IMG/VR virus record: IMGVR_UViG_3300020733_000003 | Span: 1-56,738 of that record | Strand: one strand, 5' to 3' | Length of the DNA: 56,738 nucleotides | Source of the DNA: a virus | Shown: in pieces, positions 783-7,180 of the stretch | Numbering within the stretch: position 1 is the stretch's first letter | Layout: every line of letters begins with the position of its first letter | Translations under genes and position numbers: made by a program | The notes under the pieces: model-generated | Told to the model about the DNA's origin: nothing | What the model saw: the letters and a program-made list of their open reading frames with translations, nothing else | Database searches by the model: none

Positions 783-1069
783 AGTGTAACCTCTGCTCCC
801 CCTCGATAAGCAAAAGAATACGTTTGGAAGGATTGGGCATCGGGCGATACTTGCTTGACTTCCGCAAACTCCATGGTTGCCGCGTCGTAATCGTAGTCGT
901 GCGTTATCATATTCAGGGCCTCGATGATACGCGACTGTAAAGATCGGTTAGCATCGAATCCGGTGACTGATCCGAAAGAGCCACAAGGCTCTTCTAAGTC
1001 ACACCAGTCGTTGTTTGGCTGTCCGTTGCCGATGCAACAGACTTCGATTGATCGTAGTGCCTCACTCAT
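779..1069 (-). CDS. Hypothetical protein
   Basis: 96 residues beginning MSEALRSIEVCC; no recognised domain. Four cysteines lie in the first 30 residues (CC at 11-12, C23, C29), but not in a classical CxxC pair, so metal binding is uncertain. Its start lies 8 bases inside the end of the upstream gene and its stop overlaps the next ATG, so it is translationally coupled on both sides in the early minus operon. Confidence 0.6.
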   Translation of the reverse strand: MSEALRSIEVCCIGNGQPNNDWCDLEEPCGSFGSVTGFDANRSLQSRIIEALNMITHDYDYDAATMEFAEVKQVSPDAQSFQTYSFAYRGGAEVTL

Positions 1070-1349
1070 TAATTGCCCCTTCAGTGAGTTTAGTAACGCT
1101 AAGGATTACCACGTCTGGTGACGCGGGATAGTGGTGTTGGTGTTCGTCGTAGCAGTTATCGATGGTGTCGTACGGTAGAACATCGATGTCGATTTCGATA
1201 ATTTCATTGTTGATCTTCTCCAGCGAGACGTCATCCTCAAATGGGAAGTTGAAGGTGTCCTTCAAGGCGTCCTTAAGGTTGTCTGCTTCGACGACGATTT
1301 CAGAATACACTCGGACGTTCCGAGCGAATTGGATGGTGAATTTAGGCAT
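1062..1349 (-). CDS. Hypothetical acidic protein behind hammerhead leader 1
   Basis: 95 residues from the ATG at 1349 (MPKFTIQFARN), chosen because AGGAGAAAACC lies directly upstream. The frame stays open further 5', but that stretch is the ribozyme. The N-terminal half (RVYSEIVVEADNLKDAL) resembles a strand-then-helix module common in small phage proteins with no assigned function. The C-terminus is acidic. Expression is probably linked to the self-cleaving leader at 1369-1431. Confidence 0.65.
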   Translation of the reverse strand: MPKFTIQFARNVRVYSEIVVEADNLKDALKDTFNFPFEDDVSLEKINNEIIEIDIDVLPYDTIDNCYDEHQHHYPASPDVVILSVTKLTEGAINE

Positions 1350-1368
1350 TGGTTTTCTCCTGTCTGAT

Positions 1369-1431
1369 GGACTCATCAGCAGTGGCCTTACCACTGGACA
1401 GAGTAGGCTGTCTACCTGCTCTGTTTCGTCC
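1369..1431 (-). ncRNA. Type II hammerhead ribozyme, copy 1
   Basis: Read 5'-3' on the minus strand: GGAC (1431-1428), GAAA, stem III CAGAGCAGG/CCTACTCTG (one C-A mismatch) with 7-base loop TAGACAG, then UC, stem I CAGTGG/CCACTG with loop TAAGG, CUGAUGA (1379-1373), and GUCC (1372-1369) closing stem II with GGAC. All hammerhead core positions (CUGAUGA, GAAA, U16.1, H17) are present. Predicted cleavage is after C1397. Opening through stem II defines the type II permutation. It ends about ten bases before the ribosome binding site of the gene starting at 1349. Confidence 0.9.
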
Positions 1432-1452
1432 TGTAAGAGTTGCTTAAAGTAG

Positions 1453-1473
1453 AAGGGGGATATGCTCCCCCTT
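1453..1473 (-). terminator. Hairpin between gene 1482 and hammerhead 1
   Basis: AAGGGGGA (1453-1460) pairs with TCCCCCTT (1466-1473), 8 bp, loop of 5. On the minus strand it is followed by CTACTTTAAG, a poor U-run, so termination would be partial. It may instead protect the 3' end of the upstream message released by ribozyme cleavage. Confidence 0.45.
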
Positions 1474-1481
1474 ATGGAGTG

Positions 1482-1691
1482 TTAGGCTGTCAAAGACTTA
1501 GCCAATGCTTTAATCCATTGACCGGGATATTCCGATGCGGACGCTAGTCGTAAAATGTGTTGTTTCCCGTCTTCAGTTTTTGACAATGCGGTCAAAACAG
1601 ATTTAGCCGCTCTGACAAGATGCGGGCACGTTTCAAGGTAGTAGCGGTTATTTGCGGGTGTGGGATTGGTTTTCATGGGTTTTGTAAGCAT
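1482..1691 (-). CDS. Hypothetical protein
   Basis: 69 residues from 1691, or 64 from the second ATG (MKTNPTPANN) at 1676. Mostly helical by composition (HLVRAAKSVLTALSKTEDGK), no recognised domain. The start lies three bases after the stop of the tiny ORF 1695-1766 without a good ribosome binding site of its own, which suggests translational coupling. Confidence 0.5.
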   Translation of the reverse strand: MLTKPMKTNPTPANNRYYLETCPHLVRAAKSVLTALSKTEDGKQHILRLASASEYPGQWIKALAKSLTA

Positions 1692-1694
1692 GCT

Positions 1695-1766
1695 TTATTT
1701 CGAGGATGCTTGGACGTAGACTGCAAAGCCAATTTCGGAAGCAATCTTCCGACACTCTTCGATCAT
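1695..1766 (-). CDS. Tiny ORF (23 residues), possible leader or gene remnant
   Basis: ATG at 1766, three bases after the stop of the gene ending at 1771; stop at 1695-1697, just before the ATG at 1691. The peptide MIEECRKIASEIGFAVYVQ looks like a helix plus strand of a real protein rather than random sequence. It bridges two coupled genes. It may be a remnant of a longer gene or serve only to pass ribosomes on. Confidence 0.35.
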   Translation of the reverse strand: MIEECRKIASEIGFAVYVQASSK

Positions 1767-1770
1767 TCGG

Positions 1771-2163
1771 TTAGCTCGTTATTAGTTCTTCGTGTACCTT
1801 CTTGTCTTGTTCACGTTGTCCGTCAAAACAGTAGTTGGCTAGGGGGAACGTTCTAATCTCGTATGCCAAGTCTCGAAGATGCTGGGCGTAGTAGGCTTTG
1901 TCAAAATGAGGTTCCAGTTCATTCCAGATAGCTTGAATCTGATCCTCTGGAAACAATGCGCAGATCTTGTTCATCCTGATAGTCGTGATGTTGGTATCGG
2001 TGCTGCCGATCACAGTACAGGCTATCAGCCGTGTTCCGAATTCTGGATCGTCTCCAAGGGGATCGGTGGCTGTCTGAGCAGTCTGCAAAGTTAATGTCGA
2101 ACCCATTCCTGTGTGAATGATGCCGATTGATCCAAGTTCGTAGTAGATTTTCATTATGTTCAC
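1771..2163 (-). CDS. Hypothetical protein
   Basis: 130 residues if started at the GTG at 2163, which overlaps the upstream stop (GTGA), or 127 from the ATG at 2154 (MKIYYELGSIG). No recognised domain. The N-terminal half is beta-rich; the C-terminal half is helical with aromatic residues (IWNELEPHFDKAYYAQHL). Part of the early minus operon. Confidence 0.6.
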   Translation of the reverse strand: MNIMKIYYELGSIGIIHTGMGSTLTLQTAQTATDPLGDDPEFGTRLIACTVIGSTDTNITTIRMNKICALFPEDQIQAIWNELEPHFDKAYYAQHLRDLAYEIRTFPLANYCFDGQREQDKKVHEELITS

Positions 2164-2489
2164 GGGATCAAAAGAGATTTGATCTTGGCAATAGCGTCTT
2201 TAACTTGCGACGTGTCAGAAATGTTGACCATGATATAGCCATCATTATTCGATGAATAGCAAGAAGGTAAAGCGTGACCGGAAAAGCGAACTTTCACTCG
2301 TGGGCCATCAATCATATAGCCTTCGGCATCCAATCCCAAATCATCGTTCCAGACCGTAAGATAACGGGAAGCTGACTTCTCGGAATAACTTGCATAAACG
2401 GTTAAACCTGCTTTTTCTAGTTGATTAGACATTCGATTGAATGAAGATGCTAAGCCAGTGAATCCGCTTGATTTCTTGATAAGTGACAT
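2160..2489 (-). CDS. Hypothetical protein behind structured leader
   Basis: 109 residues, ATG at 2489 with CTAGGAGAC as ribosome binding site. Helical N-terminus (FNRMSNQLEKAGLTVYASYSE), then a beta-rich middle (YLTVWNDDLGLD, VKVRFSGHAL), then a C-terminal helix. The pattern resembles small alpha+beta phage proteins of unknown role. The 124-base leader folds into a three-helix junction (2501-2561) in the position where other genes of this operon carry hammerheads. Confidence 0.6.
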   Translation of the reverse strand: MSLIKKSSGFTGLASSFNRMSNQLEKAGLTVYASYSEKSASRYLTVWNDDLGLDAEGYMIDGPRVKVRFSGHALPSCYSSNNDGYIMVNISDTSQVKDAIAKIKSLLIP

Positions 2490-2500
2490 GGTTGTCTCCT

Positions 2501-2561
2501 AGTCCCATCGGAGCAGACTTTGGACTGCTCTTGTGGTTTAACAGCCCAGACTGGCTGGACT
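2501..2561 (-). ncRNA. Structured leader: three-helix junction lacking the hammerhead core
   Basis: On the minus strand AGTCC (2561-2557) can pair with GGACT (2505-2501). Inside lie two hairpins, CAGCC/GGCTG (2557-2542, sharing one base with the outer stem) and GAGCAG/CTGCTC (2530-2511), linked by TTAAACCACAA and CGATG. Layout and position match the hammerhead leaders, but GAAA and CUGAUGA are missing. It could be a decayed ribozyme, another ribozyme class, or a protein-binding leader. Confidence 0.35.
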
Positions 2562-2613
2562 GCCCATCACCATTGACTATGTGGGGAAGATAAGACTTCC
2601 TCTTAGTGAGTGT

Positions 2614-2889
2614 TTAGAAAAATGATCTCGGTCTTACATCTGGCCCGTACTTTCCAGAGTGCCGAGCCACACAAAGAAGTTCGTCTAACCAGCCGTCATT
2701 CACTCTTTCCGCAATCGCGTCAAGAATTTCGGTTTTGGTCATTTTGCGAAGTGGAGCGTAACCCCCAGTGATGGAGCATTCGGTTCCTTCGTTTTCCAAG
2801 AGCAAAACGATTAATCCGCTGTTTTTTGACAAAATAATGTGCCCTCGGTAGTTATCGTGAGTGAAAGAGAATGCTGGTTTCGTGATCAT
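2614..2889 (-). CDS. Hypothetical protein
   Basis: 91 residues, MITKPAFSFTHDNYRGHI. The start is fixed by AGGGGGGCAA immediately upstream, and the gene overlaps the previous one by 38 bases. Beta-rich first half with a glycine/threonine turn, helical second half (KTEILDAIAERVNDGWLDE). No recognised family. After its stop a small GGAAG/CTTCC hairpin precedes the structured leader of the next gene. Confidence 0.6.
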   Translation of the reverse strand: MITKPAFSFTHDNYRGHIILSKNSGLIVLLLENEGTECSITGGYAPLRKMTKTEILDAIAERVNDGWLDELLCVARHSGKYGPDVRPRSFF

Positions 2890-3202
2890 TTGCCCCCCTA
2901 TTGAGCATCTCTGTTTCTAGAGATTGGAAGTATGCTCTTGCTTCTGCTTTACCCTTAAATGACTTACCGAATGTAGCATGGCACAGGTAATCAAAGTGAG
3001 TGACACTCCATTTGCGGTTTGTCCACCGTGCCATTGATCCAGCAGGTTCAAACCCCGGCTCATGCTGTTTGAAGTACCAACATCGGTTATTCTCAGAGTC
3101 CACAAACGCATCGATAATCGATACCTGCGACATCTGGCCTTTGGCGTCAGTGTAGTTAGCTAATAGAATCTTCCCTGCTGGGATTTCTCGTTCTTGAATC
3201 AT
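2852..3202 (-). CDS. Hypothetical protein behind hammerhead leader 2
   Basis: 116 residues from ATG 3202 (MIQEREIPAGKIL), chosen for the AAGGAGACAATAAA site just upstream; the longer open frame runs into the ribozyme. Beta-rich N-terminal half (ILLANYTDAKG, VSIIDAFVDSENNRCWYF), then a helix with GKAEARAYFQSLE. No family recognised. Its message should begin with the 3' product of hammerhead 2 if the ribozyme is active. Confidence 0.6.
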   Translation of the reverse strand: MIQEREIPAGKILLANYTDAKGQMSQVSIIDAFVDSENNRCWYFKQHEPGFEPAGSMARWTNRKWSVTHFDYLCHATFGKSFKGKAEARAYFQSLETEMLNRGANDHETSILFHSR

Positions 3203-3221
3203 TTTATTGTCTCCTTCTGAC

Positions 3222-3282
3222 GGACTCATCAGCAGTGGCCTTACCACTGGACAAGTAGGCTGTTTACCTACTTGTTTCGTCC
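3222..3282 (-). ncRNA. Type II hammerhead ribozyme, copy 2
   Basis: Minus strand: GGAC (3282-3279), GAAA (3278-3275), stem III CAAGTAGG/CCTACTTG (8 perfect pairs, loop TAAACAG), UC, stem I CAGTGG/CCACTG (loop TAAGG), CUGAUGA (3232-3226), GUCC (3225-3222). Cleavage is predicted between 3250 and 3249. Compared with copy 1, stem I is identical while both strands of stem III changed together, evidence for selection on structure. Its 5' arm overlaps the last codons and stop of the gene at 3268-3483. Confidence 0.92.
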
Positions 3283-3483
3283 TGTTACTTGTGAGTGAAA
3301 CTCACAGATATAAGCTTTCTGCTCAATAGGCTTATCCCATGATCCGAACCGTTCTGGTTGATCGATTGGTATTACTGCTTTGCCCATGATTAGCTTTGGA
3401 CTGCTACCAAACGGGAAGAGGATTTGCACACTTCCGAGAATGTAGCTTGGTCCGAGAATCGATTGCTTTAATGTTGGTTTCAT
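3268..3483 (-). CDS. Hypothetical protein, first gene of the early minus operon
   Basis: 71 residues, MKPTLKQSILGPSYILG, with CCGGAGACAAC as ribosome binding site directly after hammerhead 3. Hydrophobic and glycine/proline-rich N-terminal half, no clear membrane helix, no recognised domain. Its final codons (T-G-R-N-K-stop) double as the 5' arm of hammerhead 2, so the 3' end of this message and the start of the next leader are the same bases. Confidence 0.6.
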   Translation of the reverse strand: MKPTLKQSILGPSYILGSVQILFPFGSSPKLIMGKAVIPIDQPERFGSWDKPIEQKAYICEFHSQVTGRNK

Positions 3484-3499
3484 GTTGTCTCCGGCGCCT

Positions 3500-3558
3500 C
3501 ACTCATCAGAGCAGGGTTGGCAATTCCTGCTGACACCAGCAGTTGCTGGTGTTTCGTG
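3500..3558 (-). ncRNA. Type II hammerhead ribozyme, copy 3 (diverged)
   Basis: Minus strand: CAC (3558-3556), GAAA (3555-3552), stem III CACCAGC/GCTGGTG (loop AACT), UC, stem I AGCAGG/CCTGCT (loop of 10), CUGAUGA (3509-3503), GUG (3502-3500) pairing with CAC. Predicted cleavage is between 3532 and 3531. Every helix sequence differs from copies 1 and 2 while all catalytic bases are kept. Stem II is only 3 bp, so its activity is less certain. It leads directly into the ribosome binding site of the gene starting at 3483. Confidence 0.85.
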
Positions 3559-3957: not shown

Positions 3958-4207
3958 TTTGCGATTTGAGCGATTGGCCCCGACGGGCTGGAGCAGAAAT
4001 TCACAGAAAGTAGTAGACAAACAGGTAGAAACCTACGATCTGAGAATCGTTAGGTTGGCTAAGTATCGTGCGAGGATCGTTTGGAACAGGAAACGAGCAG
4101 AAACTGGCGCAGTTGAGTAGTCCACTGCTGACAGACCAGCAGTCGATGAACAGGCTGTCAGACAACCAAGCAGACGTGCTTAATGGTGCGCTGTGCTGTG
4201 GCACCAG

Positions 4208-4263
4208 CAGTCGAGCAGTCGAGCAGTCGAGCAGTCGAGCAGTCGAGCAGTCGAGCAGTCGAG
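4208..4263. repeat. Tandem repeat, 7 copies of CAGTCGAG
   Basis: Seven perfect head-to-tail copies of an 8-bp unit. The period is not a multiple of three and both strands show long open frames only because of the repeat, so it is not coding. Copy number should vary by replication slippage. It lies about 230 bases upstream of the gene at 4489. Confidence 0.95.
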
Positions 4264-4488
4264 CTTACTCTTGGTTGGTTGGTAGGGTTGGTGGATGGGC
4301 TGTCGCTTTCGCTCAAGTATGTCCCCATGCCCACATGCCCCCCCCCCACACACCCGCTGGCCGCCGATCGCCTCCGCTATCGCCCCGATACAAACTGCGG
4401 CCTATTTTTTTGGACAAAAACCTTTTGGGTAGCATTGTTACTATTTCTCATGGTAATCTAGCGCCGCCCACCCGGGCAAGGAGTTTCT

Positions 4489-4797
4489 ATGTTCATAAAG
4501 CTTCATGAGAACTTTGGTGCAGAGACCTCGGAGACCTACTTCAACATGGCGACGGTCACTAAGGTCTTAAAGAGTCGACAGGACTCGACGTTCTTGATCG
4601 TAGGTGATGAGGGGTGCGAGATCACCGAGACGCCAGAGGAGATCATGAATCTTCTCAAGGTTGCCCAATACAATGCGACGGTTTATCCTGTTTTTGGTTG
4701 GACCCAGCCATTGACTATCAACAGTGAAACGCAGTGGAAGGCAATTCCCCAGACACACACTAGCCCTAACATCAGTGGGGAGGGTCCAAAGGAATGA
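4489..4797 (+). CDS. Small protein with FlbD-like N-terminal module
   Basis: 102 residues with a good ribosome binding site (GCAAGGAG). The first 56 residues (MFIKLHENFG, then FNMATVTKVL, then ITETPEEIMNLL) follow the pattern of short FlbD-like or DUF-type proteins: a beta strand, a segment naming the expected location, a strand, then a helix beginning PEEI. The C-terminal 40 residues are low in structure. Function unknown. First of three coupled genes; its stop overlaps the next ATG. Confidence 0.6.
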   Translation: MFIKLHENFGAETSETYFNMATVTKVLKSRQDSTFLIVGDEGCEITETPEEIMNLLKVAQYNATVYPVFGWTQPLTINSETQWKAIPQTHTSPNISGEGPKE

Positions 4798-7079: not shown

Positions 7080-7180
7080 TATACATGGCGGGACTTGAAC
7101 CCACATCCTCCATGATCGGTTGCCTTGTCCGGTTACGATCCGGGAGCTTCCGTGGCGTTCTACCGTTGAGTTACATAGAT
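7080..7180 (-). tRNA. tRNA-like element with enlarged anticodon loop (possible pseudo-tRNA)
   Basis: Minus strand: acceptor ATCTATG / CATGTAT (6 of 7 pairs including one GU), TA, weak D-arm (ACTC-AACGGTA-GAAC, GG present), anticodon stem CCACG / CATGG (4 of 5), variable AGGAT, T-arm GTGGG-TTCAAGT-CCCGC. These all fit a normal 72-base tRNA except that the anticodon loop is 36 bases instead of 7. Inside it CCGG-ATCGTAA-CCGG could be an alternative anticodon hairpin (CGT). An intron, an insertion or a decayed tRNA would all fit. No CCA is encoded. Confidence 0.45.

Follow-up and report, generated by a model that had tools for sequence, protein, structure and literature searches.

Serial ribozyme leaders in an uncultured phage operon: three type II hammerheads, a Twister-P5 ribozyme and an apparently new core-complementary tail

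What do small self-cleaving ribozymes do in front of phage genes? The role of bacterial and phage hammerheads has been a question since 2011, when clusters flanking single genes in prophages led to the inference that messages are processed into single-gene mRNAs (Perreault et al. 2011, PMC3088659). Tandem hammerhead arrays cleave in vitro, and for one of them cleavage was demonstrated in E. coli as well (PMC3088659). Hammerheads flank small non-conserved genes (PMC6155905), and bacterial hammerheads and twisters are co-enriched, both around shared genes and in the neighbourhood of each other or of other ribozymes (PMC10085705). Here we investigated one minus-strand operon of the IMG/VR virus record IMGVR_UViG_3300020733_000003, whose whole analysed stretch of 56,738 bases is called the window. 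Its ribozymes and the genes behind them, all located by computation, were:

3500..3558, minus strand: HH3, type II hammerhead, the operon's first leader; predicted cleavage after 3532 (motif scan)
3268..3483, minus strand: gene behind HH3, 71 aa, no family match
3222..3282, minus strand: HH2, type II hammerhead of the short-loop subclass; predicted cleavage after 3250 (motif scan)
2852..3202, minus strand: gene behind HH2, 116 aa, overlapping the next gene (2614-2889)
2513..2571, minus strand: Twister-P5 ribozyme (Rfam RF02684, 45.2 bits, cutoff 37.6); cleavage predicted, by analogy with known twisters, between U2540 and A2539
2160..2489, minus strand: gene behind the twister, 109 aa, followed by 1771-2154 and 1482-1691
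1369..1431, minus strand: HH1, type II hammerhead of the short-loop subclass; predicted cleavage after 1397 (motif scan)
1062..1349, minus strand: gene behind HH1, 95 aa, overlapping 779-1069, which itself overlaps 612-782

A strict type II motif scan, demanding CUGAUGA, GAAA, UH and closed stems I, II and III, recognized exactly three hammerheads in the 56.7 kb, all on the minus strand (matches at 3500-3558, 3223-3281 and 1370-1430); the same scan gave no match in 100 Markov-shuffled windows. The core (GAAA, UH and CUGANGA in the stem-II-open order) was complete in all three copies, and no type I or III permutation was found in the window. The covariance model R1, trained on 40 other phage hammerheads with the window left out, matched at the places of HH1 (58.7 bits, E 7.9e-20), HH2 (58.9 bits, E 6.6e-20) and HH3 (28.5 bits, E 3.7e-8), and nowhere else in the window. 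A sequence-only reading had claimed three type II hammerheads with intact cores, and motif scan and R1 gave exactly those minus-strand places. Its cleavage sites agree with the motif, and each copy does lie, as it had said, upstream of a Shine-Dalgarno sequence (SD) and an ATG (1349, 3202 and 3483).

The fold z-scores were -3.0 for HH1, -5.0 for HH2 and -2.2 for HH3. All three helices were present and covaried among relatives; although the selection criteria partly impose the pairing itself, they do not dictate how diverse the pair types are. HH1 and HH2 were 97% identical over 38 nt (stem I, core and tail). Judged by their sequences, they are paralogous near-copies and not fully independent evidence. 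Their stem III differs in sequence, yet is paired in both. Probably one leader was copied and then diverged under structural constraint.

Compared with the Rfam family Hammerhead_II (RF02276), the open stem II, the core and the cleavage site are alike. HH1 and HH2 differ from it by a stem-loop I of 17 nt in both, a UCAG tail, and the lack of a visible loop I-tail pseudoknot, which most short-loop relatives also lack. Type II hammerheads are known to use this pseudoknot (PMC3088659), and among viral type II hammerheads in general we counted 17 loop I-tail pairings of at least five Watson-Crick pairs with the copy's own tail vs 1.8 with swapped tails. HH3 has a candidate, as in the published type II consensus:

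3519-3522 with 3495-3498, minus strand: possible loop I-tail pseudoknot of HH3, UGCC with GGCG, 4 bp including one G-U, read from the sequence

The sequence-only reading had named an Rfam hit above threshold as its check, and the lack of one as counting against it. No hammerhead of the window reached the gathering score: HH3 had 31 bits against RF02276 (cutoff 37), and HH1 and HH2 were below the gathering cutoff of the Rfam hammerhead model. This threshold is a curators' cutoff and no biochemical definition. In 14 viral array loci with 85 motif copies, Rfam recovered 11/85. Because Rfam misses most motif matches in these loci, we did not count its failure against HH1-HH3; the sub-threshold scores are a limitation of the model and not evidence against hammerheads.

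The earlier list of three ribozymes was correct as far as it went and incomplete, having overlooked both the Twister-P5 and the core-complementary tails described below. The twister match spanned the full model (positions 1-58 of 58), with no difference seen from the family. It shares the operon with the hammerheads and precedes the gene at 2489 by 23 nt. With the window as positive control, Twister-P5 was found in 0/98 other hammerhead-bearing virus records. No twister-P1 scored above cutoff in 50 records, and a pattern derived from the window's twister had no other match in viral contigs. Arrays mixing hammerheads and twisters are thus uncommon in this sample.

On the minus strand, the operon runs HH3, 3483-3268, HH2, 3202-2852, 2889-2614, the twister, 2489-2160, 2154-1771, 1691-1482, HH1, 1349-1062, 1069-779 and 782-612. 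Where ribozymes sit between genes, the gaps measure 65, 124 and 132 nt. The internal junctions mostly overlap or nearly touch (-38, 5, 79, -8 and -4 nt), the 79-nt gap being without a ribozyme. Behind HH2 come two overlapping genes, behind HH1 three, and behind the twister about three as a block. All four ribozyme-led genes have the SD form GGAGANAA in common. No convincing family was found for any product of the operon, and a promoter scan at the leaders gave nothing above chance.

Further elements were recognized within and around the operon. Just upstream of HH1, on the minus strand, there is a terminator-like GC hairpin (1456-1471), which may shield the 3' end of the upstream piece. Seven copies of an 8-bp repeat (AGCAGTCG) stand in tandem at 4206-4264, in the stretch of ~1 kb that separates the leader operon from the divergent gene at 4489. 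At 7080-7180, minus strand, a tRNA-like element with a good T arm scored 26.7 bits (cutoff 29), with about 40 nt where the anticodon region is expected; ARAGORN found no tRNA there, and the fold was no better than shuffles.

A related phage with the same operon was not found among cultured-phage DNA, viral contigs or relatives of the terminase TerL. The operon DNA had no match in cultured phages, the gene behind HH1 had no relatives in viral contigs, and the RecT-like gene had no protein match. The motif scan gave no hammerhead in the TerL relatives (L392-L429), of which the closest contigs are short fragments, and the 14 of their records that were searched had no Twister-P5.

Serial hammerhead leaders are nevertheless widespread in uncultured phages. 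When viral contigs were scanned for type II motifs whose stem II reads GGAC or GGTC, at least about 120 stretches matched. Among the matches listed, 432 copies differed in their downstream gene and formed the comparison set, 415 of them with enough sequence. An SD and a start followed within 80 nt in 360/415 (median 23) among the matches listed, vs 532/2075 (26%) for random same-strand positions under the same criterion. All copies lay on a single strand in 108/109 multi-copy loci, with up to at least 12 copies per locus, again among the matches listed. Two records of related phages stood out. One of 25 kb (L242) had seven matching hammerheads in series and one of 95 kb (L440/L438) had eight, nearly all with the core-complementary tail.

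What would such leaders do? We infer that the minus-strand operon 3558-612 would be transcribed as a single message that would cut itself at 3532, 3250, 2540 and 1397. Just downstream of every cut would lie a strong GGAG-type ribosome binding site (RBS), followed by one gene or by several that overlap. A hammerhead cut would leave stem III as a hairpin at the end of the upstream piece, and the 5'-OH of the mRNA downstream would sit on the base with which pairing in the stem I hairpin begins. That two unrelated ribozyme folds occupy equivalent slots argues that the cut itself is selected. The sequence-only reading had proposed messages cut into single-gene units with 5'-OH ends. The twister slot and the leader placement across viruses back the cutting; “single-gene” does not hold, several leaders heading blocks of genes.

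The reading with the best support, division of a polycistronic phage message into units, was already put forward by Perreault et al. (2011). As in the prophage clusters of that study, for example the Agrobacterium triple array around ardA, there are several hammerheads per operon, with small genes. The Agrobacterium array cleaves in vitro and in E. coli (PMC3088659); what the window adds is a twister and a core-complementary tail on two copies. Hammerheads and twister alike extend known ribozyme classes by new members, and the way they are arranged is of a known kind too. The early message of phage T7 is processed by RNase III between genes into units with hairpin ends. Here a polycistronic phage message would likewise be cut between genes, with the difference that the RNA would cut itself, leaving 5'-OH and 2',3'-cyclic phosphate ends.

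The ribozymes might instead be decayed or selfish insertions with no function for the phage. In favour, a single leader seems to have been duplicated recently to give HH1 and HH2, and no function is known for the genes that follow these two. Against it stand cores intact in every copy, a stem III that differs between HH1 and HH2 but stays paired, the exact leader placement before hundreds of unrelated genes and a twister in an equivalent slot. We regard this explanation as very improbable.

Beyond message cutting, HH1 and HH2 carry a feature absent from HH3. The bases after stem II are AUCAG in HH1 and GUCAG in HH2, both complementary to the core CUGAU. Each tail could form a hairpin with the core, supported by covariation in relatives:

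3217..3232, minus strand: alternative hairpin of HH2, CUGAUG-AGUC-CGUCAG, core with tail, N7-N' being U-G
1364..1379, minus strand: alternative hairpin of HH1, CUGAUG-AGUC-CAUCAG, core with tail, N7-N' being U-A

A tail N'UCAG complementary to the core CUGAN was found in ~15% of unselected phage type II hammerheads. From the second base past stem II, UCAG was the top 4-mer with 67 copies, the next having 11, in a set that includes loci fetched for the tail. Position N7 of the hammerhead core can vary freely. Among copies chosen irrespective of their tail, N7-N' was U-A in 27, C-G in 25, U-G in 2 and A-U in 1, with 4 mismatches. Pairing was thus present in 55/59; 20,000 shuffles averaged 41.3 paired copies and never exceeded 49. 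A complete scan for GTCC+NTCAG, counted per gene cluster, gave 39 U-A, 11 C-G, 2 U-G and no mismatch. A general bias of N7 and tail base does not account for this, since C7 with A was the commonest combination in tails without UCAG. Both pair types also occur within single phages: L030, L162 and L244 have U-A and C-G copies side by side, as does L242, with four of the former and three of the latter.

In a spacing variant, the tail base is also part of stem II, with T-T-A in 11/21 and C-C-G in 7/21. The stem II partner changes with the tail base, so one base serves both folds. Pairing was kept in 92/95 copies with hairpin loops of 5-10 nt and in 1/4 with longer loops; complementarity reached into stem I in only 13/63. 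Because CUGA is invariant anyway, only N7-N' varies freely, and the alternative helix rests on this one varying pair, its continuity and the variable loop. A second tail type (GACU with the stem II AGUC) gave 18/3 vs 3/5 (p = 0.019), which is weak, and we do not claim it.

Matches to the tail-bearing pattern in genome_contigs were limited to two similar leaders (L388 and L389) of the Acidobacteria MAG SZAS-4; the tail-bearing form is nearly confined to virus contigs. The tail does not appear in the text of the 2011 paper (PMC3088659), and we found no description of it in the open-access papers searched; it may have been described elsewhere. The core-complementary tail is apparently new.

The core-tail helix uses bases that the active hammerhead core requires. 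It is therefore an inactive state, incompatible with the active fold. In nearest-neighbour energies, which do not count tertiary energy, the alternative hairpin was favoured over the active fold even before cleavage in HH1 (-29.2 vs -26.6) and HH2 (-29.4 vs -28.8), and it was already the lowest-energy fold of HH2. Once the 5' product is gone, only the alternative hairpin remains in the computed folds, abutting stem I. We consider it quite likely that many phage hammerhead leaders are bistable, with a tail selected to pair with the core, giving the ribozyme its own off switch, either as a post-cleavage lock or as control of cleavage.

Could the tail act in the active ribozyme instead, as a tertiary contact (an N7-tail pair or docking with loop I) that substitutes for the loop I pseudoknot? 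The use of that pseudoknot by type II hammerheads and the distribution of N'UCAG, rare in the long-loop class (3/53) and common in the short-loop class (93/379, a set partly selected for the tail), would fit. We find this improbable: the complementarity covers the whole CUGAN, bases needed in the active core, pairing persists over loops of 5-10 nt, which is hardly compatible with a fixed contact, and most short-loop ribozymes have no tail.

Since the energies favour the hairpin even before the cut, it could inhibit cleavage rather than follow it. The main rival to a lock is accordingly a regulatory OFF state, in which cleavage would be conditional on melting of the hairpin by a 30S subunit at the adjacent RBS, a protein or a second RNA. 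The near-equal computed pre-cleavage energies of the two folds and the distance of only 2-3 nt between tail and SD in HH1 and HH2 speak for it, against a tail that is transcribed only after the entire ribozyme, no visible ligand domain, and ~85% of comparable leaders without a tail. We hold such a switch to be unlikely, though less so than a tertiary contact.

We favour a lock that follows cleavage, the 3' product probably locking its own core. The tail AUCAG or GUCAG would then pair with the core CUGAU and destroy the catalytic core of the 3' product, which would help to shed the 5' product and prevent religation. This would leave two adjoining hairpins before the RBS, with the 5'-OH end buried, and nucleases that begin at free, phosphorylated 5' ends should be hindered there. 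Viroid and satellite hammerhead cores are hidden in a rod structure after cleavage. The core would here likewise be sequestered by pairing after the cut, with the difference that a short core-adjacent tail in a phage mRNA leader would act. Overall, we think it likely that one message cuts itself at four places and that the tails of HH1 and HH2 then lock the core; message stability or translation may be affected.

With arrays of up to at least 12 copies, one per leader, the processing idea becomes testable at scale. The Rfam type II model overlooks most short-loop phage copies, and present hammerhead counts are therefore low. The core-tail helix, a defined feature open to mutation, can tell the models apart: it should alter religation, the release of the products and the 5' end of the mRNA. 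Confirmation would make it a natural one-way switch of about five bases.
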